Source: Verrucomicrobiales bacterium
GTDB lineage: Bacteria; Verrucomicrobiota; Verrucomicrobiia; Verrucomicrobiales; DEV007
Length of the DNA stretch: 64,000 nucleotides
Direction: 5' to 3'
NCBI GenBank assembly: GCA_029213195.1
Contig: JARGNI010000011.1
Coordinates: 1 to 64,000 of the forward strand
The position numbers and the translations under genes are program-made. The first letter of the stretch is position 1. The number at the start of each line of letters is the position of its first letter. Shown piece by piece: positions 33,455 to 47,833 of this stretch. Under the pieces are notes generated by a model. The model ran no database searches. It was given only the letters and a program-made list of their open reading frames with translations, and was not told where the DNA came from.

Positions 33455-34417
33455 ATGAACCGAAATGCTATTCTCCCAGTCCTTCTCCTGGTCGCCCTGA
33501 CCAGCATGCTGGTCGCTGCCGACCGTGGTAAGAACCTCACGCCCCGACCGAACGAACCTATTCCCAAAGCAGAAATCATGAGCCTGACCGGGAGCTTCGA
33601 AGGCGCGGAGCTAAGCCGAGACATTTCCATTCTCTGGCTCTCGGGGCCAGAAGATCATCGCGGTGGTGAGCACGATTATATTCGGGTCAAAGAGTTGTTC
33701 GTTCCCTTATTGGAATCAATCCCTAGAGTCTCGGTAGTCGAGGCGTTTCAGTTTCCGACACAGGATCAGTTCGACCAAGCCGACCTTCTGATCAAGTATT
33801 TGCACTTGCCGGAACTGAGCGACGAACAGTTCGCCATGTATCAAGCCTTTGTCGATCAGGGAGGATCCGTGGTCTCCATCCACGAGTCCTGCATCATGCG
33901 TCCGGTAGAGCGAGCCGAGAAACTGGCTGACTGCATCGGTTGCTCGTGGAAAGGAAATCAATCGTCGCAGTGGAGCAAATTTGGCCATAGCCACCCGCTG
34001 TATCTTAGGACGGAGCATCCCGCCTTCTCTGGATTGCCCTCATCCATCAAGTTTAACGACGAGTCCTATTGGAACTTGCTCGCGCGCGACAAGGTTGAAG
34101 TCATCGGTGCCATCGCACCTGAGGCGGATACAAACGATTTGTCGTTTGGTGAAGTACTGAAAACAGAAAGTGCACGCAGCCAGGCTTTCTGGACCTGGAC
34201 ATCAGGAAAGGGTCGCGTTTTCGGCACGACTACGGGCCACTACACTTACACCTACTACGACCCACTCTACCGACTTCTTCTGTTGCGCGGCATCGCGTGG
34301 ACACTCGACGAGGATCCAGCCCCCTTCATGCCCATCGTGTTTCAGGGAATTACAAACGATGAGGGCCTCGTCGGCACTACCAGCAACATGATGAATTACG
34401 AGAACCGCAAGCGTTGA
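33455..34417 (+). CDS. Secreted ThuA-like protein
   Basis: ThuA (trehalose-utilisation, class-I glutamine-amidotransferase-like fold) protein of 320 residues with a signal peptide (1-22). Typical parts are ILWLSGPEDHRGGEHDYIRV (about 60-79), QADLLIKYLHLPELSDEQFAMY, VDQGGSVVSIHESC (about 135-148) and SGKGRVFGTTTGHYTYTYYDPLYRLLLLRGI (about 251-281). ThuA domains recur next to dehydrogenases and DUF1080 proteins in PVC genomes and have been linked to keto-sugar metabolism; here the gene opens a plus-strand run leading to the DUF1080-containing fusion at 38524. Codon use is less G+C-rich than the block at 11-17 kb. No clear ribosome site precedes the ATG. Confidence 0.85.
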   Translation: MNRNAILPVLLLVALTSMLVAADRGKNLTPRPNEPIPKAEIMSLTGSFEGAELSRDISILWLSGPEDHRGGEHDYIRVKELFVPLLESIPRVSVVEAFQFPTQDQFDQADLLIKYLHLPELSDEQFAMYQAFVDQGGSVVSIHESCIMRPVERAEKLADCIGCSWKGNQSSQWSKFGHSHPLYLRTEHPAFSGLPSSIKFNDESYWNLLARDKVEVIGAIAPEADTNDLSFGEVLKTESARSQAFWTWTSGKGRVFGTTTGHYTYTYYDPLYRLLLLRGIAWTLDEDPAPFMPIVFQGITNDEGLVGTTSNMMNYENRKR

Positions 34418-34581
34418 AAACGACTTCGAACCAGGTCAGGAATTCCCGAGATCTGACGGGCGTCTTCCTTTCCTTCCTGTCTGCCAGACTCGTAGTCACT
34501 TCAGTTTGCCTTTCTTTTTCTGGCAAGTTTTGTCGTCTTTGTCTTCAATCAGATGCGCGATCCCGCAGCTCAAGAAACCCC

Positions 34582-36096
34582 ATGAAACGAATCCTCTCCA
34601 TTCTGTCCTTTCTCTGTCTTTCCATTTCGATGGGGGCCGAAAAATCGAACCCAAACTTCATCCTCATTATGGTGGACGACATGGGCTACTCGGATATCGG
34701 CTGCTACGGCGGAGAGGTAGAAACGCCCAACATCGACATGCTCGCGGAGAACGGGCTGCGTTTCACCCAGTTCTACAATACGGCCAAGTGTCACACCACC
34801 CGTGCTGAAATCCTGACAGGCAATTACGCCTACCAGATCGGAGATCAGTCCATGCAACATGGCGCCACCTTTGGCGAGGTCCTTCGCACCGTGGGATACC
34901 GAACTCTGATTTCCGGGAAGTGGCACCAGAACCCACTCCCGACCACGCGTGGCTTCGATCGCTACTACGGTCTCGCGGACGGATGCTGCAACTTTTTCAA
35001 TCCGGGGATCGTTGCTCGGGAGGGCGAAGGGGATCCAGGTCGCAAGGGCCAGAATCGGGTGCGCCGTTGGGCGATCGAAGACGAGGTCATCATGGGCTAC
35101 ACCAACCCTGATCCCAAGTTTTATACCACCGATGCCTTCACCACCTACGCGATTGATCGACTCGATGAATACAAGGATGAGGAGAAACCCTTCATGCTCT
35201 ACCTCCCCTACACCGCCCCGCATTACCCACTCCACGCCTGGCCGGAAGACATCGCCAAGTATCGCGGCAAGTTTCTCGCCGGATGGGATGTCCTTCGCGA
35301 ACAGCGTTTCGAACGCATGAAGAAGATGGGAATCATCGGCGAGAAACACCAGCTTACCCCGCGAGCCTCGAAGGCGTGGGATGACTTGTCGGATAAGGAA
35401 AAGGATGCCGAGGATCTGAAGATGGCGGTCTACTGTGCGATGATCGATCGAGTCGATCAGAATCTCGGCCGTCTATTTGCGAAGGTGAAGGAACTGGGAG
35501 AGTGGGACAACACCCTCATCATGTTCCTGACCGACAACGGAGCCTGCCCCGAGCAACCCAACACCACTCCCGATATTCCACCCGGCCCCGTCGAGAGCTA
35601 CCGCACGATTTCCGTTGGCTGGGCGAACGCCAGCAACACGCCCTATCGCAAATTCAAATCCACCGATTACGAAGGAGGCATCCGCACTCCCTTCATCGCC
35701 CACTGGCCCAAGGTCATCGAGCCGGGGACGATGACCGATCAGGTGGGCCATATCATCGACCTCTCCGCGACCTTTATGGATATCACAGGCGCCGAGTATC
35801 CTGAGGAAATTGACGGCAAGAAAACGAGAGAACCCGCCGGACTTTCCCTGATGCCCATCTTCGAAGGAAAAGAGCGGACACCTCATGAGGAAATCTACTG
35901 GAGATTCAACCGTGCCAATGCCGTTCGCCAGGGAGATCTGAAAGCAATTCGAGCCGGAAAATCCTGGGAGCTCTACGATCTGAAAGCCGATCCGACCGAG
36001 ATGAAAAACCTCGCAGCCGAACGTCCCGAGAAGACGAAGGAACTCGCTGATTTGTGGGAAAGCTGGAATGCAAATTCGGTGGGGAAGAAAAAGTGA
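34582..36096 (+). CDS. Secreted sulfatase with unusual C-H-T-T-R maturation motif
   Basis: Exported sulfatase of 504 residues. Signal peptide 1-19; metal motif MVDDMGYSDIGCYGG; second metal region FLTDNGACPEQPN; SGKWHQNP holds the active-site Lys/His. The position of the formylglycine Cys is clear from spacing (Cys70 in YNTAKCHTTRAEILTG), but the motif is C-H-T-T-R. The third position, almost always Pro or Ala, is Thr. The enzyme may still be matured, be matured poorly, or belong to a little-studied subgroup. ATG 34582 starts the signal peptide; the frame is open upstream to 34414 but that part is not protein-like. It is followed after 63 bases by another sulfatase. Confidence 0.9.
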   Translation: MKRILSILSFLCLSISMGAEKSNPNFILIMVDDMGYSDIGCYGGEVETPNIDMLAENGLRFTQFYNTAKCHTTRAEILTGNYAYQIGDQSMQHGATFGEVLRTVGYRTLISGKWHQNPLPTTRGFDRYYGLADGCCNFFNPGIVAREGEGDPGRKGQNRVRRWAIEDEVIMGYTNPDPKFYTTDAFTTYAIDRLDEYKDEEKPFMLYLPYTAPHYPLHAWPEDIAKYRGKFLAGWDVLREQRFERMKKMGIIGEKHQLTPRASKAWDDLSDKEKDAEDLKMAVYCAMIDRVDQNLGRLFAKVKELGEWDNTLIMFLTDNGACPEQPNTTPDIPPGPVESYRTISVGWANASNTPYRKFKSTDYEGGIRTPFIAHWPKVIEPGTMTDQVGHIIDLSATFMDITGAEYPEEIDGKKTREPAGLSLMPIFEGKERTPHEEIYWRFNRANAVRQGDLKAIRAGKSWELYDLKADPTEMKNLAAERPEKTKELADLWESWNANSVGKKK

Positions 36097-36159: not shown

Positions 36160-38085
36160 ATGAACCTCCTTCACTTTCCCCTGACCCACGATTTGAGGAT
36201 CGCGATCTGCCTCCTCCTTTCCACATCCCTCTTCGCCCCCGGATCGCTTCGGGCCGAAGACGACCGCCCTGAAAAACCAAACATCGTCCTCATCCTCGTC
36301 GATGACCTCGGGTGGCAGGACGTCGGCTGCTACGACATCGATGAGCCATCCCCGATGGAAACGCCGAACCTCGACGCACTCGCGAAGAAAGGGATCCAGT
36401 TCTGGCAGGGATATTCCCCCGCCCCAACCTGCGCCCCGACGCGGTGCGCCATTCTCAGCGGAACCCATCCTGCTCGTGCCCAGAAAACTCACGTTGTCGG
36501 TGGCGCACCGCCCGCTCCTCATCACCTCCGCGGTTGGGCGATGATGTCTCCCTGGTACAGCGGTCGAATGCCCGAAGACACCGTCACGATCCCGCGTGCC
36601 CTCAAGCCAGCCGGATACGTCTCGGGCCATTCAGGCAAATGGCATATCGCCATCAATCACAACGCCTATCCCCAGCCCAGAGACGTCGGCTTTGATTGGA
36701 CGCGGAGCGATCGCGGAACCAACACTGCCATGAAGCCCCACCGCATGGCTGAATTTTCCACAAGGGAGACAGGCAACCCCCACCGCCTCGACAAAGATGG
36801 TTTCCCCCGGGACCAGACCACCACAGACGCGCTGACCTTCCTTCGCGAGCACCAGGATCAGCCATTCTTCCTCTATTACGCCACCTGGCTGGTGCACACT
36901 CCCATCCAGACCCGAAGCCGGGCTCTTCTCGACAAATATGTCGAGAAGCTCGGAGTGGAACTGCCCGAGGATCCGCTTACGAAATGGACGAAGGAAGGGC
37001 AGACCAACCCTTTCTACTGCGCGATGGTGGAACAACTCGATCACTACATCGGGGACCTCGTGAACTACCTCGAAGAGACGGAAGACCCGCGCTGGCCCGG
37101 ACATCGATTGGCGGAAAACACCTACATCATCTTTACTTCCGACAACGGCGGAATGGAGGGAAGTCGCAACCAGATCATCACGGACAACTACCCTCTCGAC
37201 CGAGGCAAGATTTCCCTGATGGAAGGAGGCACCCGCGTCCCACTCATCATCACAGGTCCGGGAATCCCTGCAGGCGTCGAATCCGACGTCATGATCAATG
37301 GTCTCGATTTCTATCCCACCATTCTCTCCCTGACAGGCACTCCGCATCCCGAGGGAAAGCACCTCGACGGCCTCGACCTGGCGACGTTGCTGAAGAACGA
37401 TCCTACCGATCCCAATCTCGTCCGGGAGGAAGATGGAACCGCTCGAGACACGATGGCCTGGCACTTCCCCAACAGCGCGGCCCTTGAAAGCTCGATCCGC
37501 ATCGGCGACTACAAGCTGGTCCGCAACTATGACCATCTCAATAATCCGGACACTCCGGAACTCGAGCTCTATCGGCTCTACCAATCGGAGGACGAAACCG
37601 CAGTTCGCGTCGACATCGAAGAGAAAAAGAACCTCGCCGAGTCCATGCCCGATAAGGCTAGCGAGATGAACACTCGACTCACCGAGGTCCTGACCGAGAT
37701 GGAAGCGAGTTATCCCTACTACAACCCACACGGCCATCGAGCACCGGATACGAAGCAAAATGTCTGCACCGTGTTGTCTCACGATCAGACCGGAGACGAA
37801 GTAGTTTTCACCTATCGGGAGAATGGAGCCAAGGTCGAGCGCGCGAACCTCATCTACACGCTCAACGGAGGCGCCCGCTATGAAGAGTGGTTCCGCGCTC
37901 CTGCGAAACTCGCGGCCGGGAACAAGGCGGTGGCGGAACTGCCCGAAGGGACGACGCACTATTTCCTCAATCTCATCGACGAAAACCAGTTTCTGAGGAG
38001 CTATCCTGAGGTACTCGATGGGAAGAACGTGAGCCTGGGTGATGTTGCGTTTGCGGAACGAGCCCTGAAGGCAAACGCACCCTGA
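36160..38085 (+). CDS. Secreted sulfatase with C-terminal beta extension
   Basis: Exported sulfatase of 641 residues. Signal peptide about 1-32; metal motif LVDDLGWQDVGCYD; maturation motif C91-A-P-T-R95; HSGKWHIAIN; second metal site TSDNGGMEGSRNQ. Catalytic parts end near residue 500. The last 120 residues (from about 525) form an extra domain with beta-strand pattern (EVVFTYRENGAKVERANLIYTLNGG and HYFLNLIDENQFLRSYPEV), perhaps a binding module. It follows the CHTTR sulfatase by 63 bases on the same strand, so the two are probably co-expressed. The large size resembles sulfatases that act on polymeric substrates; this is inference. Confidence 0.93.
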   Translation: MNLLHFPLTHDLRIAICLLLSTSLFAPGSLRAEDDRPEKPNIVLILVDDLGWQDVGCYDIDEPSPMETPNLDALAKKGIQFWQGYSPAPTCAPTRCAILSGTHPARAQKTHVVGGAPPAPHHLRGWAMMSPWYSGRMPEDTVTIPRALKPAGYVSGHSGKWHIAINHNAYPQPRDVGFDWTRSDRGTNTAMKPHRMAEFSTRETGNPHRLDKDGFPRDQTTTDALTFLREHQDQPFFLYYATWLVHTPIQTRSRALLDKYVEKLGVELPEDPLTKWTKEGQTNPFYCAMVEQLDHYIGDLVNYLEETEDPRWPGHRLAENTYIIFTSDNGGMEGSRNQIITDNYPLDRGKISLMEGGTRVPLIITGPGIPAGVESDVMINGLDFYPTILSLTGTPHPEGKHLDGLDLATLLKNDPTDPNLVREEDGTARDTMAWHFPNSAALESSIRIGDYKLVRNYDHLNNPDTPELELYRLYQSEDETAVRVDIEEKKNLAESMPDKASEMNTRLTEVLTEMEASYPYYNPHGHRAPDTKQNVCTVLSHDQTGDEVVFTYRENGAKVERANLIYTLNGGARYEEWFRAPAKLAAGNKAVAELPEGTTHYFLNLIDENQFLRSYPEVLDGKNVSLGDVAFAERALKANAP

Positions 38086-38523: not shown

Positions 38524-41500
38524 ATGATCAATTCGCAAAGTTGGCTCATGTCCTCATTTTTTCCCAGACCGTGTCCCCATCCCAACCGGTTCCAGCTACT
38601 GCTAGTCTGGATCGCGGGCACGATATCGATCAGCTTCTCCCAGGAATCCCGTGGACTGGAAGGCATTTCGCTCACCGATCCGAAACTTCAAGTCGAGCTC
38701 ATCGACACCCATCCAGACGAATTTTTCCTCAGCCATGACATGGATCTGCAAGGACGACTCTTCCTGGGGTCCCGCGAAGGAGTCTTCGTCTACGAGCGCA
38801 CCGCTAAGGGAGGTTTCGAACCGCGGCGAGAACTCTATCGATTTCCCAAAGACACGTGGGTCTACGATCTCGAAACGTTCGGGGATGACTTGCTTGTCCT
38901 GACCAACACCGCGCTTTACCGACTCGATGACGTGCTGAGCGCGAAGCCAAAGTTGAAGAAAATTCTCTGGGGAAATCCTCTTGGTCATCACCACCAGGGA
39001 CTGCACGGCATCGAGTTTGCACCCGATGGAACGCTCCTTCTCGTCATGGGAGATCCTCACCCCAATGTAAACCTCGACAAGGAGCGCCCGGATCACCTCT
39101 GGCATTGGACCTGGTATGTCGGCCCGGAGAACCGGGCGGTCCCCTACTCGGGAGTCGGAGCCGTGATGCGACTGGACCTCGACAACTACGACCTCTCGGT
39201 CTACGCCACCGGCCTTCGCAATGCCTGTGGGATTTCGTTCGACCGCGACTGGCATCTCTTCGCCAACGACAATGATCAGGAGGGTTCCACCGCCAATCCC
39301 TGCCGCCTTGTGTATGTGCCGCCTCATTCCTGGAACGGCTGGGCACGTGGCTGGGACACCAGTCAGGCTCCGGCTCGGCTCGACATGCTCCCCACGGTGA
39401 ACTGGCAGCTGGATGTCCCGACGGGCCAGGGATTCTACGATGATACCACCCTGGGTGAGGACTATCGAGGTTCACTCTTCATGTCGAACTGGGGAAGCCG
39501 AAGTGTCAGCTGGCATCCCATGGAACCGGAAGGGGCTGGTTTCACTTCGCTGGCGAAACCTTTCCTGCGAGCCGCCGGGAATCGTCGACCGGTATCGGCG
39601 ATGCCGACCAATCGAGGGGATCTCATCGTCTCGCTTTGCTATATGGATGGCAACGAGGGATCACCCTACCGCCAGACGGATCTCGTGCTGGTATCTCCAC
39701 GGGAACGAAGCGGAGCGAGAAAATTCGACTACTCGGATACCTCCCTACTCGACTTGCTCGCAGGACCGCTTCAGCTCCGGGCTAAAGCCCATCGAGAGAT
39801 CCTGCGAACGGGTGGCAAGGAGCTCGAAGAAGCAGCCAAGGTTTTCCCGGACACTTCCCCGGATCATCCTGCCTTCTCGAGCCTGATTTTTCTTGCCGCA
39901 GCTCATGGCGATTCGGCTTCGATTGATCGAATCACATCCCTGGCTCAGGGGGAAGGGCGGGCCAGCACATTGGCGTGGCGAGCCGCTGCCGCTTACCCGG
40001 AGAAATTTACCGCGATCCCAAACGACCGAGTCGATGCTTTTGCGAAAGCAAAAAAGTCTCCCGCTGAGTTGGCTGGATTTCTCGAATACCTGCATGCCGC
40101 CCAGCACCCCATCAGCGATCCTATTGCCTTACTAGCCGCCCATTCGGATCCTTTCGTCCGCCAGTCTGCTGCCATCCTCGTCGCACGGCAGGCTTCTGAG
40201 GAGAGAATCTCTCAACTTGCTGAGGGAGACGCGGACCAGCGTCTCGCCGCCACTCTCGCAACCGTGTTTCGTCTCTGGGAAAAATCCGAACAGGTCACCG
40301 ATTTTCCCAGGAGCGGAGTTCCAGCACAGGAGAAACATATGAGACTCCATCATCCCGAAGGCATCATCGATCTGCGGGACTTCGAACCCACCGTCGGTAC
40401 CTTCAAGTTGGCAGACTGGTGGAGTGATGCAGCAGTAAAGAAGGAAAATGCCACCGGGTTTGCTCGCTTAAAGCAAGGTCTCAACGACGAGGATGAAAAG
40501 GTCACCATCGCTGCAGCGACAGGTCTCTTTTTCCTGAATGACGAGCGCGTCAATGAAGCTCTCGATCTGGTTCTCAATCGCCACAACATTACCCTCGCCA
40601 TGGTCGCGGGAGCCGCCAACAAAGCGGACCTGAAGAAGGCCCTTCGTGCATTGAAGGATGCGAAGCTTTCCACTGGCGTCGAAATTCCCGAAGCCTTTCG
40701 CGATATCGATTGGGACAACGAGAAGAAAAAGGGCAACGTGGTGAAAGGGAAAGAACTCTTTACCCAGCGTGGCTGCGTTGCCTGTCACCTTGCGCCTCAC
40801 GATGGAGCCGGAGGAGCGATTGGTCCGTCTCTCGTTGGCTCGGGAGATCGTTTTCCACCGAGCTACCTCGCCGCTTCTCTTCTCGTCCCGAACCTCACGG
40901 TATCACCCAACTTTCATCCTAACACCATCACGATGAAAGATGGAACGGTGCACACAGGTTACATCGAAATTGGCGGTGCTCCCGACATTATCCGACTCCG
41001 TGTGATCACAGGTCAGCTCGTCGAGCTCGCCAAGAATGAGATCACGAAACAGGAAGCAAGCGAACAGTCCATGATGCCCGCAGGGTTGATCCAGACCCCC
41101 GACGAGATGCGCGACATGATCGCCTACCTGCAGGTTTCGAAGGGCAGGAAGCCGAAACCACCGGCAACCCAATCTCAGGCACCGGATCGTGACCAACGAC
41201 TTGTGCAACGTACCATCGATCCCCTGGCGCCAAACTCGTTTCTGTTTCCGCCAACCCGAGCGAAATTTGTGCGGGTCGACATTCTCGAGAGCTCGCAGGG
41301 GCAACCCTGTATCGATGAGTTGGAAGTCTACTCGACCGACTCACCCAACAATCTCGCAGCAAACACTGCTGGAGCAAAGGCCAGCGCATCGTCGCTGCTC
41401 AAGGGACACCCTGAGAAACACCAGGTCGAATTTCTCAATGACGGGAAATATGGGAACGATCGCAGTTGGATTCCGGCAACGAAAACTGGCTGGGCTCAGA

Positions 41501-43860
41501 TCGAACTGCCGGAAGTCACTGCAATCGACAGCGTCATTCTCTCCCGCGACCGCGGTGGCAGCCTCACTCGCCGAGTTCCCATCGCCTTCGACATTCTCGT
41601 CTCCGTCGATGGAAAACAATGGAAGCCAGTGAAGAAGGTGCGCCCTCGGACTCCCGTTTCGAAAGAAGTAAAACCAGTGATCTGCCCAGGCAAGAAGGTG
41701 CACAATTCCAAACCTCTCCCAAAACTCGATGACACGGGTTTTATTTCCATTTTCGATGGCAAAGCCCTGGACGGTTGGGACTTCCGAAAAGGAGCGTGGG
41801 AACTGGTCGACGGCACCATTTCCTGCACGGGAAAAGAGCAGGAGCGAAATTGGATGATCTGGCGAGGAGGGCAGCCTTCCGACTTTGTGCTTCGGCTGGA
41901 GTTCAAATATGGAGCTGGCAACTCCGGCGTTCAGGTCCGCAGCGATGACCTCGGCGATCACCAGGTCTTCGGGTACCAAGTCGAGATTGCGCCACAGGGG
42001 AAAATGGGACTCTGGCATCATTCCCTACTCGGAAAGGAAGATCCCGCCCATGAAGCACGCTTCTTCATGGCGACCGCAGGGCAGGAGGTGGTCATCACGG
42101 AAAAAGGCGAGAAGACCGCCAAGCAAGTTGCCCCCGCCCAGGAAACTGTCGCTCACTACCGGGAGAGAGGTTGGAACACGATGGAGATTATCGCTGAGGG
42201 CAACGCCCTGACTCAGAAAATCAATGGTGTAGTCTTTTCCAAGGTGACCGACGACGACAGTCGCATGTCGCGCAGAAAAGGTTTCATCGCTTTGCAAGAT
42301 CACGGCAAGGGCTGCCAGGTTGCATTTCGAAATATTCGTATCAAGGAGTTGGTCGGAGACACGGTGGAATCACAAAGCCCACGCCCCTCTCCGGTCCTAC
42401 CTCCATCAAACCCCAGGCCCAACATCATCATCATTCTCGCGGATGACCTCGGCTGGGGCGACGTCTCCTGCAATCAACCGGAACGCGGAAAAGTAAAGAC
42501 TCCCGCGATCGACAGTCTCGCCGACGAAGGGATGCGCTTCACCAACGCGCATGCACCTCATGCGGTCTGCACACCGACCCGATATTCTCTTCTCACAGGC
42601 CGCTACTGCTGGCGCACGTTTCTCCGCGAGGGCGTCCTACCCGGTTACAGCAAGCCGCTCATTCCAACGACTCGAACGACGATTGCTTCGGCGTTGAAAG
42701 GGCGAGGCTATGCCACCGCTGCTTTCGGCAAGTGGCACATCGGTCTTGGATGGAAACCGGTAGAGGGAGACCCCGGTGATTTCCATTATGGATCTCATCT
42801 TCACGGACCAGAAGCCTCCGCTGCCATTGCCGCGATGAGCCTGCGAGTAGACCACACCGCACCGATCACGGGAGGTCCCATCGACCTCGGCTTCGATACC
42901 TTTTTTGGCACTCCCTCCAATTGCACTCGCATCCCCGTTTTCATCCGCGACGATCGGGTCATCAACGACCCGGGGCGAGACAAATCTGGGATGATTACTG
43001 ATCCGGCAGTCGACCGTCAGACAGTCGATGACCTCTACGTGAAGGAGGCGGAGAAGTTTATTCTCAGCTCGGTCGAGAGCGAGCAACCCTTCTTCGTCTA
43101 TCTCGCGCTCAATGCAGCTCATGGCGCCATTCTTCCTCCGGATCGATTCAAAGGCTCAACCGGAATCGGCGCCCGAGCCGATCGGGTTCCCTGGGTGGAC
43201 GAGAGCGTCACCAAGGTTCGCAAGATTCTCAAAGAGTCCGGAGTCGAGGAAAACACGCTCATTCTTTTCACCTCCGACAATGGACCCAAGCACGACAAGA
43301 ACGAGCTCCCGAAATACGATCATGATTCCTCTGGCCCCTACCGCGGATACAAGACCGATGCCTGGGACGGCGGGACACGGGTCCCGTTCATTGCCCACTG
43401 GCCAGGAAAGATTGAAGCCGGCACGGTGAACCATAACCTGATTTGCCTCACCGACATCCTCCCCACCACGGCCGCACTGGTCGGTGCAGACTTGCCAGAG
43501 TGGGCCGCGGAAGATGGCGTCGATCAAAGCACCCAACTCTCGGACGCGGAAGCTGACCCGAGCCGAGAGTCGATGATCACGCAGTCCTATGTCGGCCTCC
43601 TCTCGATTCGCGAAGGTCGATGGAAGCTGATCTTCGATACCGAGGGATCCGGTGGATTCTACCAGTATTCCCCCGCTGCAGAACCCATGAATACCCTTGC
43701 TCCCTGGCGTGTTGATTTCAGTGAAAGGGGTCAACTCTACGATCTGGAAGCCGATCCCGGCGAAGCAGAGAATCTCTACGGACAGCGACCGAAGGTCGTT
43801 GATCGCCTTACCAAGATGATGCGGGCTGCGATCGTAACGGGCCGAAGTGTAGAGAAGTGA
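38524..43860 (+). CDS. Giant fusion: PVC dehydrogenase + cytochrome c + discoidin + DUF1080 + sulfatase
   Basis: One uninterrupted 1778-residue frame. Order: signal peptide (about 15-40); PVC-type dehydrogenase propeller (about 45-400, GLRNACGISFDRDWHLFANDND); helical HEAT-like region (about 400-720); cytochrome c with C751-V-A-C-H755 and SLLVPNLTVSPNFHPNTI after it; discoidin-like domain (about 905-1045, FDILVSVDGKQWKPV); DUF1080/3-keto-disaccharide hydrolase domain (about 1070-1278, FISIFDGKALDGWDFRKGAW); Pro-rich linker; complete sulfatase (about 1298-1778) with ADDLGWGD, C1349-T-P-T-R1353, AFGKWHIGLGW and SDNGPK. Each part is usually a separate protein. Sugar oxidation, keto-sugar cleavage and desulfation by one chain is inferred. 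M1 at 38524 or M9 at 38548 could start it. It is convergent with the next gene (22 bases). Confidence 0.93.
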   Translation: MINSQSWLMSSFFPRPCPHPNRFQLLLVWIAGTISISFSQESRGLEGISLTDPKLQVELIDTHPDEFFLSHDMDLQGRLFLGSREGVFVYERTAKGGFEPRRELYRFPKDTWVYDLETFGDDLLVLTNTALYRLDDVLSAKPKLKKILWGNPLGHHHQGLHGIEFAPDGTLLLVMGDPHPNVNLDKERPDHLWHWTWYVGPENRAVPYSGVGAVMRLDLDNYDLSVYATGLRNACGISFDRDWHLFANDNDQEGSTANPCRLVYVPPHSWNGWARGWDTSQAPARLDMLPTVNWQLDVPTGQGFYDDTTLGEDYRGSLFMSNWGSRSVSWHPMEPEGAGFTSLAKPFLRAAGNRRPVSAMPTNRGDLIVSLCYMDGNEGSPYRQTDLVLVSPRERSGARKFDYSDTSLLDLLAGPLQLRAKAHREILRTGGKELEEAAKVFPDTSPDHPAFSSLIFLAAAHGDSASIDRITSLAQGEGRASTLAWRAAAAYPEKFTAIPNDRVDAFAKAKKSPAELAGFLEYLHAAQHPISDPIALLAAHSDPFVRQSAAILVARQASEERISQLAEGDADQRLAATLATVFRLWEKSEQVTDFPRSGVPAQEKHMRLHHPEGIIDLRDFEPTVGTFKLADWWSDAAVKKENATGFARLKQGLNDEDEKVTIAAATGLFFLNDERVNEALDLVLNRHNITLAMVAGAANKADLKKALRALKDAKLSTGVEIPEAFRDIDWDNEKKKGNVVKGKELFTQRGCVACHLAPHDGAGGAIGPSLVGSGDRFPPSYLAASLLVPNLTVSPNFHPNTITMKDGTVHTGYIEIGGAPDIIRLRVITGQLVELAKNEITKQEASEQSMMPAGLIQTPDEMRDMIAYLQVSKGRKPKPPATQSQAPDRDQRLVQRTIDPLAPNSFLFPPTRAKFVRVDILESSQGQPCIDELEVYSTDSPNNLAANTAGAKASASSLLKGHPEKHQVEFLNDGKYGNDRSWIPATKTGWAQIELPEVTAIDSVILSRDRGGSLTRRVPIAFDILVSVDGKQWKPVKKVRPRTPVSKEVKPVICPGKKVHNSKPLPKLDDTGFISIFDGKALDGWDFRKGAWELVDGTISCTGKEQERNWMIWRGGQPSDFVLRLEFKYGAGNSGVQVRSDDLGDHQVFGYQVEIAPQGKMGLWHHSLLGKEDPAHEARFFMATAGQEVVITEKGEKTAKQVAPAQETVAHYRERGWNTMEIIAEGNALTQKINGVVFSKVTDDDSRMSRRKGFIALQDHGKGCQVAFRNIRIKELVGDTVESQSPRPSPVLPPSNPRPNIIIILADDLGWGDVSCNQPERGKVKTPAIDSLADEGMRFTNAHAPHAVCTPTRYSLLTGRYCWRTFLREGVLPGYSKPLIPTTRTTIASALKGRGYATAAFGKWHIGLGWKPVEGDPGDFHYGSHLHGPEASAAIAAMSLRVDHTAPITGGPIDLGFDTFFGTPSNCTRIPVFIRDDRVINDPGRDKSGMITDPAVDRQTVDDLYVKEAEKFILSSVESEQPFFVYLALNAAHGAILPPDRFKGSTGIGARADRVPWVDESVTKVRKILKESGVEENTLILFTSDNGPKHDKNELPKYDHDSSGPYRGYKTDAWDGGTRVPFIAHWPGKIEAGTVNHNLICLTDILPTTAALVGADLPEWAAEDGVDQSTQLSDAEADPSRESMITQSYVGLLSIREGRWKLIFDTEGSGGFYQYSPAAEPMNTLAPWRVDFSERGQLYDLEADPGEAENLYGQRPKVVDRLTKMMRAAIVTGRSVEK

Positions 43861-44785: not shown

Positions 44786-45120
44786 GAATACGTCTGGCTT
44801 GATCACTCGTTCAAATTGATGGCGCTCGCGATGGGGAGACCACCCCTCCAGGACCACCGCAAAAAAGCAATTTTCTCACCCTGACTTACTTTCGAGAATA
44901 ACTTCCGGAAGTCCTCTGGCAAGGCAATTGAAAGACCTCACTCCGTCAGGAGGGCGCACTTCCCCTTCTTCGGTCGCGAAGAGTCTCCTCCCTGTCCTCA
45001 AGACGACTCCCACGATTTCTGCACCCGTCGCTTCCTCCTCAACCGACTTTGCCCGTTTCAGAGTTGACCCACGGGGATCATCCGTCATCCTCTGCCTCAC
45101 CCTACTCATTTTCCAGTTTT
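44786..45120. other. 335-base divergent intergenic region
   Basis: No gene or repeat seen. It should hold promoters for the SGNH gene (leftward) and the HEAT-tailed sulfatase (rightward). A TTGACC at 45064-45069 resembles a -35 box, but I see no good -10 element at the right spacing, so no promoter is called. Confidence 0.35.
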
Positions 45121-46956
45121 ATGAAATCCATCGCCCTATCTTCCATCCTGCTGGCAACCCTTTTCGTTTTCACTTCTGCTGCCGAAGAACGCCCCAACAT
45201 CCTCTGGATCACCAGTGAGGACAATGGGATCTCCTGGGTCGGATGCTACGGAGGGACGAATGCAAAGACCCCATCGATCGACAAGCTCGCCGAGGAAGGG
45301 TTCCGCTATCGCTACTGCTTCGACAATGCTGCCGTTTGTGCTCCGACCCGATCGATCTGGATCACGGGCATGTATGGCGTTTCCAACGGGACCCAACCGA
45401 TGCGGAGCCGGAATGAGATTCCACATGACAAGATCGCCTATTATCCCGACCTCCTGAACCGAGCCGGCTACCACACATCCAACCCGGGTAAGACCGACTA
45501 CAATATCGGAGGCCGGGAGGACAAGGAGCCATGGGATCTGAAAAAGGGAACGCAGTATGGCTGGAAGAAACGTGAGCCGGGACAACCATTCTTCTGCGTC
45601 GTCAACATCGGCGACAGTCACGAGAGCCGGGCTCACGGAAATGTCGAAAACACTCGGAACGATCCCGCGAAGATGAAGCTGTTCTCCTACCATCCGGACC
45701 TCTCCGTTATCCGGAAAAACTACGCCAAGTATGCGGATGCGGTGGAGAACATGGACAAGAAAGTCGGGCAATGCCTCGCCGAACTGGAGAAGGACGGGCT
45801 TGCCGAAAACACCATCGTTATCTACAACTCCGATCACGGGGGTGTGATGGCGCGGAGCAAGCGCTTCGTCTACTCCAGCGGAATCCACTGTCCGCTCATC
45901 GTTCGCATCCCGGAGAAGTTCCAGCATCTCTATCCTGCCGAGAAGCCCGGCACGGTCGTTGACCGTTTGGTCGGATTCGTCGACATGCCCAAGACCTGGC
46001 TCAGCCTCGCCGGTGCCGAAATCCCAAACACCTTCCAGGGGCGGGTCTTTCTCGGCAAAGACGCCGACCCCGAGCCGGAGTATCACTTCGCCTTCCGCGA
46101 GCGGGCCGATGAGCGTCTCGACAATGTTCGCGTAATGCGGGACAAGCGCTTCTCCTATCACAAGAACTACATGCCCTTCGCGCCCGCAGGACAACACCTC
46201 GCCTATCTCTGGAAGGCAAAAGCGACGCCGGCTTGGGAGCAGCATCACCGCGAGGGAAAAACCGATGAGATCACCGGTCGCTTTTTCCGCCCCCGCGTAT
46301 CCGAAGAGCTCTACGACAACAAGACCGATTTCGACAACGTCCACAACCTGATCGACAGCAAAGAGCATCAGGAGAAGGTCGCCGAGTTGAAAGCAGCACT
46401 GCGGAAGAAGCAGCTCGAGCTTAACGATTCTGGTCTTCTTCCCGAGCAGATGCGCGTCCGCCGCGCCGCCGCGAACAAGGTCACGATCTACGAGATGATT
46501 CGGAATGAGAAGCTCTACCCGCTCGAGACCTATCTCGATGCCGCCGATGTCGCCCTCGCCCGAGACGCCGAGAATCTCGATGCCTTTGTTGCCGCTCTCT
46601 CCGACGAAGATGAAGGACTTCGCTGGTGGGGCATCGTCGGGGTTCACCTGCTCGAGGACAAAGCCGCCTCGGTATCCGGCGCTCTGGAAACGGCTCTCGA
46701 AGACGAGGCGCACGAAATCCGGATGATGGCGGCATGGACGCTCATCAAACTTGGGAAGACCGAGAAGGCACTCGCCTGTCTCGAGAGCCTCCTTTTCGAA
46801 GGCACTCACAACGAGATAATGCTTCACAATGTTCTCGACTGGATGGGCGAGCCCGCTCATCCCCTCATCAAGCGCTACATGGCGGAGGGGGGATCGAAAG
46901 ATGGCAAATACGGAATCAGTATCTTCGGTCGAGTTGCGGAACTGAATGGCTGGTGA
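45121..46956 (+). CDS. Secreted sulfatase with HEAT-like C-terminal repeats (second paralogue)
   Basis: Exported sulfatase of 611 residues. Signal peptide 1-21; ITSEDNGISWVGCYGG; maturation motif C73-A-P-T-R77; NPGKTDYNIGG replaces GKWH; YNSDHGGVMARSKRFVYSSGIHCPL is the second metal and Lys/Arg region. Residues about 470-611 form HEAT-like helices (SDEDEGLRWWGIVGVHLL, HEIRMMAAWTLIKLGK). It is a clear paralogue of the sulfatase at 22415 but not a recent copy. ATG 45121 begins the signal peptide; the earlier frame to 45049 is unsupported. A long antisense open frame covers this gene and is rejected. Confidence 0.93.
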   Translation: MKSIALSSILLATLFVFTSAAEERPNILWITSEDNGISWVGCYGGTNAKTPSIDKLAEEGFRYRYCFDNAAVCAPTRSIWITGMYGVSNGTQPMRSRNEIPHDKIAYYPDLLNRAGYHTSNPGKTDYNIGGREDKEPWDLKKGTQYGWKKREPGQPFFCVVNIGDSHESRAHGNVENTRNDPAKMKLFSYHPDLSVIRKNYAKYADAVENMDKKVGQCLAELEKDGLAENTIVIYNSDHGGVMARSKRFVYSSGIHCPLIVRIPEKFQHLYPAEKPGTVVDRLVGFVDMPKTWLSLAGAEIPNTFQGRVFLGKDADPEPEYHFAFRERADERLDNVRVMRDKRFSYHKNYMPFAPAGQHLAYLWKAKATPAWEQHHREGKTDEITGRFFRPRVSEELYDNKTDFDNVHNLIDSKEHQEKVAELKAALRKKQLELNDSGLLPEQMRVRRAAANKVTIYEMIRNEKLYPLETYLDAADVALARDAENLDAFVAALSDEDEGLRWWGIVGVHLLEDKAASVSGALETALEDEAHEIRMMAAWTLIKLGKTEKALACLESLLFEGTHNEIMLHNVLDWMGEPAHPLIKRYMAEGGSKDGKYGISIFGRVAELNGW

Positions 46957-47100
46957 GACACCTGGAGGACTGGGTTCGATTTCTGAGAATCCTGATTCTG
47001 CCTGGGAAAACTGAGGCTTCATTCGTGCGATTCGAGTAGATTCTCTTCCATTCGCGTTCCAGAAAGCAAGCCGGGCGGTCTGAGCAAAGTCCAATCCTCC

Positions 47101-47769
47101 ATGTCGACACCTCAAACGAGAGAAAGGAATGAGGTGATCGTCCTCCTTCATGGACTGGCTCGCAATTCCCAGTCTATGGGCAAAATGCAGCGGGCGCTCG
47201 AGGGAGAAGGCTACCCGGTTCTCAACATCAACTACCCGTCGCGCAAACATCGGATCGAGGAGTTGGCAGAGCACATTCAAGATTCGATATCGAGGCAGGT
47301 ATCTGAAGACCAGCCCCTGCATTTCGTCACCCATTCGATGGGAGGCATCCTTGTTCGATACCTTCAGCACACCACCTCTCTGCCCAATGCCCGCAGGCTG
47401 GTCATGCTGAGCCCACCGAATCGCGGCAGCGAAGTGGTGGACAGGCTCCGACACCTGCCACCCTTTCACTGGGTCAACGGCCCTGCTGGGGAACAATTGG
47501 GGACCGGCCCGGACGGGCTGGTCGCGCGTCTCGGTCCGCCGACACTCGAGACGGGCGTCATTACCGGTAATCGCAGTATCAACTGGATTCTCTCTCGTCT
47601 CATTCCGGGCCCCAACGATGGCAAAGTCTCCGTTGAGAGTGCGCAGTTGGAAGGAATGAAAGACTTCCTTGTCGTTCCGACCACGCACCCTTATATCATG
47701 AAAAATCGGCAAGTCATCGACTCGACCATTCGTTTCCTGGAGACTGGGAGTTTTCAAGAGGTCACTTGA
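47101..47769 (+). CDS. Small alpha/beta-hydrolase, lipase-like
   Basis: Lipase-type alpha/beta hydrolase of 222 residues without an obvious signal peptide, so probably cytoplasmic. The N-terminal strand VIVLLHGLARNSQSM supplies the oxyanion HG (residues 17-18), and the nucleophile elbow is T-H-S79-M-G-G. The probable acidic residue is in PGPNDGKVSVES and the His in VVPTTHPYIM. The family often hydrolyses acylglycerols or esters, but the substrate is unknown. It is 144 bases after the sulfatase and separate from it. A 17-base stretch at 47612-47628 recurs at 49710-49726, marking a decayed copy. Confidence 0.85.
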   Translation: MSTPQTRERNEVIVLLHGLARNSQSMGKMQRALEGEGYPVLNINYPSRKHRIEELAEHIQDSISRQVSEDQPLHFVTHSMGGILVRYLQHTTSLPNARRLVMLSPPNRGSEVVDRLRHLPPFHWVNGPAGEQLGTGPDGLVARLGPPTLETGVITGNRSINWILSRLIPGPNDGKVSVESAQLEGMKDFLVVPTTHPYIMKNRQVIDSTIRFLETGSFQEVT

Positions 47770-47833
47770 AAGCAAGGTTCTGACAAAGCCCCCGGAGACA
47801 GGTCATCAAGAGACGGCGATCGACAACTTCTAT

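Follow-up and report, generated by a model that had tools for sequence, protein, structure and literature searches.

A 1,778-residue frame joining dehydrogenase-like, c-type heme, discoidin, DUF1080 and sulfatase modules in a Verrucomicrobiales bacterium, with fused relatives in two phyla

For Planctomycetes, multi-domain sulfatases that arose by gene fusion are described, as are operons whose genes differ in ancestry (PMC4807772). A sulfatase-GH195 chain of Polaribacter (PbSulf1-GH195), which corresponds to two genes in O. pacifica, was shown to act sequentially on one glycan (PMC13063451). DUF1080 domains act on 3-keto-disaccharides where tested, with 3-keto roles reported in two systems, and a DUF1080 protein and a C3 dehydrogenase were proposed, from mutant fitness, as partners in lactose use by Caulobacter (PMC9007349). 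Planctomycete-type cytochrome genes tend to adjoin sulfatase genes (PMC5615132), and bacteria of the Planctomycetes-Verrucomicrobia-Chlamydiae (PVC) group encode many dehydrogenase-cytochrome proteins that lack an assigned role. Here we analyze a gene at positions 38524-43860 of a 64,000-nucleotide stretch (the window; assembly GCA_029213195.1, contig JARGNI010000011.1, positions 1 to 64,000) from a Verrucomicrobiales bacterium, which encodes dehydrogenase-like, cytochrome, discoidin, DUF1080 and sulfatase modules in a single chain. Its layout is as follows.

38524..43860, + strand: fusion gene, 1,778 amino acids (aa), single uninterrupted frame
38524..38643, + strand: signal-peptide-like N-terminus, residues 1-40, judged by eye
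38656..39723, + strand: propeller dehydrogenase-like domain, residues ~45-400, distant TIGR02604/DUF7133 relative
39724..40728, + strand: HEAT-like helical region, residues ~401-735, with HEAT_2 and alpha-Rep matches
40732..41133, + strand: c-type heme domain, residues 737-870 (Pfam and NCBIfam), CVACH at 40774-40788
41239..41658, + strand: discoidin/F5-F8 type C module, residues ~906-1045 (Pfam, tree, likeness to relative L058)
41737..42345, + strand: DUF1080/3-keto-disaccharide hydrolase domain, residues 1072-1274 (Pfam)
42355..42414, + strand: Pro/Ser-rich linker, residues 1278-1297, without signal peptide or ATG
42415..43827, + strand: S1-type sulfatase, residues 1298-1768, formylglycine motif CTPTR at 42568-42582

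The gene is one ATG-to-stop frame of 1,778 codons. GC content at third codon positions is even across all modules (0.59-0.66) and stops crowd the other five frames (17-70 each), which implies a single coding unit, far beyond chance. Neither an ATG nor a hydrophobic leader or signal peptide was found at the three internal junctions checked. An uninterrupted frame of this length, and these modules with motifs at C751-H755 and C1349-R1353, had been claimed in a preliminary description of the DNA; the frame was borne out by the features above, and the modules and motif positions by Pfam and NCBIfam searches and a motif check. Hydrophobic leaders also open the relatives L061, L062, L058 and L184 (see below), and the chain is probably secreted.

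In the glycan-directed half, Sulfatase (PF00884) matched residues 1299-1654 (E 7.5e-50, 170 bits against a cut-off of 25), and the sulfatase motifs are complete (CTPTR 1349-1353, ADDLGWGD 1306, GKWHIG 1402, HGA 1533, SDNG 1584). Genes of the formylglycine-generating enzyme (FGE) family were found in the organism's own genome, and the sulfatase would presumably be loaded with formylglycine. The 3keto-disac_hyd/DUF1080 profile (PF06439) was matched over its whole length (1-187/187) at residues 1072-1274 (E 2.2e-35, 122.8 vs 26.8 bits), and F5_F8_type_C (PF00754) matched residues 953-1038 (E 2.1e-7, 31.6 bits, cut-off 28.2).

In the redox half, the heme domain contains the motif C751-V-A-C-H755, matched Cytochrom_C at residues 740-790 (E 1.2e-6; Pfam) and scored above the cut-off for the TIGR02603 heme-binding domain at residues 737-870 (79.9 vs 68.15 bits; NCBIfam); the chain would presumably be loaded with heme. 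HEAT_2 is weak in the fusion (residues 648-713, E 0.058; Pfam) and was found in 5/6 aligned rows, with alpha-Rep matches as well. The propeller matched the PVC-type dehydrogenase family TIGR02604 at residues 109-370 with E 8.7e-13 and 48.4 bits, below the curated cut-off of 122.2 (NCBIfam). Thus, it resembles that family but is not filed as a member, despite TIGR02604 matches in all five alignment rows at E <= 0.1 (best 2.3e-19) and a profile comparison with DUF7133 proteins by hhalign at 97% probability; it is best described as a divergent relative, not a typical member, of the PVC dehydrogenases. H157 (nt 38992-38994) and R232 (nt 39217-39219) are invariant in the five of five rows covering these positions and were judged to occupy the catalytic His and Arg places, R232 being the arginine of GLRN. 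The kinship with DUF7133, a weak match to PDB entry 3a9g and these invariant residues make it plausible that the propeller oxidizes a sugar and passes electrons to heme c; a specificity for C3 would follow solely from the DUF1080 partner. An AlphaFold2 model of the propeller half, built from two alignment rows only, had a predicted local distance difference test score of 33. A search for PqqC, as a cofactor test for synthesis of pyrroloquinoline quinone (PQQ), found none in the organism's own genome and none in any control genome either.

Fused relatives occur in Pirellulaceae (Planctomycetota) and in other Verrucomicrobia. A Mariniblastus metagenome-assembled genome (Pirellulaceae) carries a 2,104-aa frame (L058) in the order dehydrogenase-cytochrome-DUF1080a-discoidin-sulfatase-HEAT-DUF1080b. 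The 2,594-aa frame of L184 (Pirellulaceae, a single contig of 7,107,266 bp) is 80% identical to L058 and has an extra sulfatase; its DUF1080b-linker-sulfatase segment matches residues 1061-1768 of the fusion over 716 aa at 54%, and the linker there is similarly Pro/Ser-rich. L185 (Pirellulaceae; 1,666 aa) bears a different sulfatase, L186 (at least 1,468 aa, contig-limited) has at its end the sulfatase that is internal in L058/L184, and L188 (1,207 aa) stops after discoidin. In other genera of the window's order, L114 (at least 1,634 aa) reads dehydrogenase-cytochrome-discoidin-sulfatase A-sulfatase B and L113 (at least 1,215 aa) reads dehydrogenase-cytochrome-discoidin-sulfatase B, where sulfatase A and B are names coined here. 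These relatives, together with the Planctomycetes sulfatase fusions (PMC4807772), show that the fusion is not one of a kind. The same parts, joined in different arrangements in both Verrucomicrobiota and Planctomycetota, suggest a common, shuffled kit for the breakdown of a sulfated sugar polymer.

Such chains are sparse. Across 387 genomes of the window's order, the cytochrome-discoidin segment had contiguous matches (55-56%) in just three others (G172, G278, G240), and 0/288 other genomes of the order matched both parts of the discoidin-DUF1080 segment in one alignment. Of 241 genomes in the family to which L058 belongs, six had discoidin matches of at least 54% in such proteins, and in four of these the frame exceeds 1,400 codons. 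Matches in L059 (Saprospiraceae) are in scattered pieces, and the plasmid collection held separate sulfatase and DUF1080 matches only, nowhere with 80% covered. As a separate observation, sulfatase B (CVASR motif; L114:5837-6106, L113:2329-3648, L058:7418-8818, L185) is 74-90% identical between phyla; it is fused in some relatives and a separate gene in L058.

In two genomes of the window's own genus the modules are separate genes. In G023 (L061), one cluster holds genes for a dehydrogenase-cytochrome of 907 aa (65% identical) and a sulfatase of 504 aa (69%); the genes between them are called DUF1592- and DUF1552-like by resemblance. In G004, 15 nt separate a DUF1080 gene of 256 aa (59%) from an in-frame sulfatase gene of 510 aa (79%) that has its own leader, and the dehydrogenase (L062) is on another contig. 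A state before fusion (or after fission) would be expected to look like this.

The module trees disagree on the nearest relatives of the fusion. For the dehydrogenase, it grouped with L061/L062 and then L113/L114, with the Pirellulaceae proteins in a separate group (100/100), and for sulfatase A it grouped with L060/L061, while L114 paired with the Pirellulaceae protein L184. By contrast, DUF1080b paired with the C-terminal DUF1080 of L058 (100/100; domains 77% identical), as did discoidin with that of L058 (98/88; 68% identical). The chain thus has genus-typical ends and a Pirellulaceae-like middle. Separately, the DUF1552-like proteins at L061:4400-5722 (window's genus) and L185:12085-13392 (Pirellulaceae) are 89% identical, which suggests a recent transfer of the whole cluster across phyla.

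We favor, at about even confidence, one secreted chain that unites several enzymes for a sulfated glycan and that would have arisen when genes otherwise found in one catabolic cluster were fused in frame and shuffled across phyla. The discoidin module would dock the chain on the sugar, the formylglycine sulfatase would take off a sulfate, the propeller would oxidize the freed sugar and send electrons through the attached heme c to the respiratory chain, and DUF1080 would cut the keto-glycoside bond. Directly seen in support are the one frame, the modules with their key motifs, the recurrent fusion and the separate-gene counterparts. The preliminary description had also proposed glycan processing by one chain; the kept active-site motifs of the sulfatase and the 3-keto activity of DUF1080 where tested (PMC9007349) agree with this, whereas propeller oxidation, the carbon oxidized, the order of steps and catalysis as a whole are predictions from sequence.

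Several points weigh against this reading. The propeller scored under its family cut-off, and its best PDB match, a weak one in the HxxG...PDG...GD stretch (E 0.008), was 3a9g, which we take to be a PQQ aldose dehydrogenase that oxidizes C1, not C3. The discoidin and DUF1080 modules might serve for binding only. Finally, planctomycete-type cytochrome proteins are predicted to be periplasmic or cytoplasmic, not extracellular (PMC5615132), a location that would restrict the chain to oligosaccharides.

Some of these points fit a scaffolded enzyme, in which only the sulfatase, perhaps with the heme domain, is catalytic and the propeller, HEAT, discoidin and DUF1080 parts bind sugar or protein. This is consistent with the divergent, sub-cut-off propeller, with a discoidin domain that groups alongside its counterparts in other large PVC proteins and with the overlap of DUF1080 with the CBM66 model (PMC5673643). 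We nonetheless consider it unlikely, given the invariance of H157 and the GLRN arginine, the 3-keto-disaccharide hydrolase roles reported for DUF1080 (PMC9007349) and the little sense that a heme domain makes without a redox partner. Alternatively, the propeller may oxidize C1 of released sugars while DUF1080 acts on a normal, non-oxidized glycoside, with no keto-sugar route. The 3a9g match favors this, as do the involvement of DUF1080 in xanthan use (PMC5673643) and THTE_1561, a DUF1080 protein reported as an endo-xanthanase/lichenase (cited in PMC9007349); the 3-keto roles of DUF1080 proteins in two systems (PMC9007349) make it rather improbable. A polyprotein, translated as one chain and cut after export so that fusion merely fixes the ratio of the enzymes, would account for the Pro/Lys-rich inter-module linkers and for the separate proteins in same-genus species, but no sign of cleavage sites was seen and the DUF1080-sulfatase linker is similar across phyla, and we regard this as doubtful indeed. 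An artefact of assembly or sequencing, or a stop lost in a single genome, is very improbable: the source is a 115-contig draft and the genes lie apart in the nearest relatives, yet the internal junctions lack signal peptides, the DUF1080-sulfatase junction is shared with the single-contig L184 and related fusions exist in two other verrucomicrobial genera. Stop loss, frameshift and a chimeric contig were accordingly ruled out by junctions, composition and relatives.

The fusion gene is flanked by further sulfatase genes.

33455..34417, + strand: ThuA-family gene (PF06283)
34414..36096, + strand: neighbouring sulfatase gene
36160..38085, + strand: neighbouring sulfatase gene
45049..46956, + strand: separate gene with sulfatase and HEAT parts, corresponding to the sulfatase built into L058/L184

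The ThuA gene, earlier cited as a neighbour, is real, but it is found upstream at a distance of 4 kb, beyond two sulfatase genes, and is therefore weak support for keto-sugar chemistry. The sulfatase 1.2 kb downstream of the fusion (45049-46956) matches the internal sulfatase of L058/L184 at 37.5-37.9% over 560-597 aa and is sister to the fused sulfatase of L058 in its tree. An 879-codon open frame antisense to it (45136-47775, - strand) is probably a codon-usage shadow. An Rfam scan of the 64-kb window gave no match.

Sulfatase matches number at least 150 in the organism's own genome, and the frames that carry them include eleven of at least 1,000 codons. L063:6905-14683 (G000:C86) encodes a 2,593-aa DUF1080-DUF7133-HEAT-cytochrome-sulfatase-sulfatase chain, and L070:2999-6517 (G000:C83) a sulfatase fused to a glycoside hydrolase (GH) 32 domain. 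A chain of at least 2,638 aa with two sulfatases, GH43 and DUF1080 is similar in kind. L064:1-8037 (G000:C71) is a frame of about 3,000 codons with GH2, TraB/GumN, possible GH5, two sulfatases, GH43 and DUF1080; a GH127-discoidin-sulfatase frame (L064:8037-11861) adjoins it, and the two chains together hold much of a glycan pathway. This lineage habitually fuses genes.

The repeated tie of a dehydrogenase-cytochrome-type protein to DUF1080 and sulfatase in two phyla is Rosetta-stone evidence for a common substrate. It offers one purifiable protein for testing oxidative breakdown of sulfated glycans. This chain would need formylglycine modification and covalent heme attachment together; we know of no described chain that needs both. 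Tentatively, these chains may form a new mobile, modular redox-hydrolytic class in two phyla, uniting oxidase, electron carrier, keto-glycoside lyase/hydrolase and sulfatase with covalent heme and formylglycine, and may reveal oxidative cleavage of sulfated glycans as a role of at least some PVC dehydrogenase-cytochromes.

The PVC-type CxxCH dehydrogenases (TIGR02604 with TIGR02603) share with the fusion the order propeller, helical repeats and CxxCH domain; the fusion differs in its divergent propeller and in the discoidin, DUF1080 and sulfatase added at its C-terminus. LacABC are separate proteins, with a dehydrogenase of a different type from that of the fusion. The keto-glycoside pathway that they form with DUF1080 likewise combines a sugar dehydrogenase and a DUF1080 hydrolase within the periplasm, and it has no sulfatase (PMC9007349). 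The Planctomycetes sulfatase fusions similarly join a sulfatase to other domains, with parts of different origin, and the available part of that report mentions no dehydrogenase-cytochrome-discoidin-DUF1080-sulfatase chain (PMC4807772). PbSulf1-GH195 also joins a sulfatase to a glycan-cleaving domain and has a two-gene relative, but its partner is a classical glycoside hydrolase, it has no redox part and it comes from a different phylum (PMC13063451). No described fusion of sulfatase and DUF1080 was found in the open-licence literature. Thus, sulfatase fusions in Planctomycetes (PMC4807772) and, in Polaribacter, a working chain of sulfatase and hydrolase (PMC13063451) were already known, and what is new, as far as that literature shows, is the combination of redox modules, DUF1080 and sulfatase, recurrent across two phyla.
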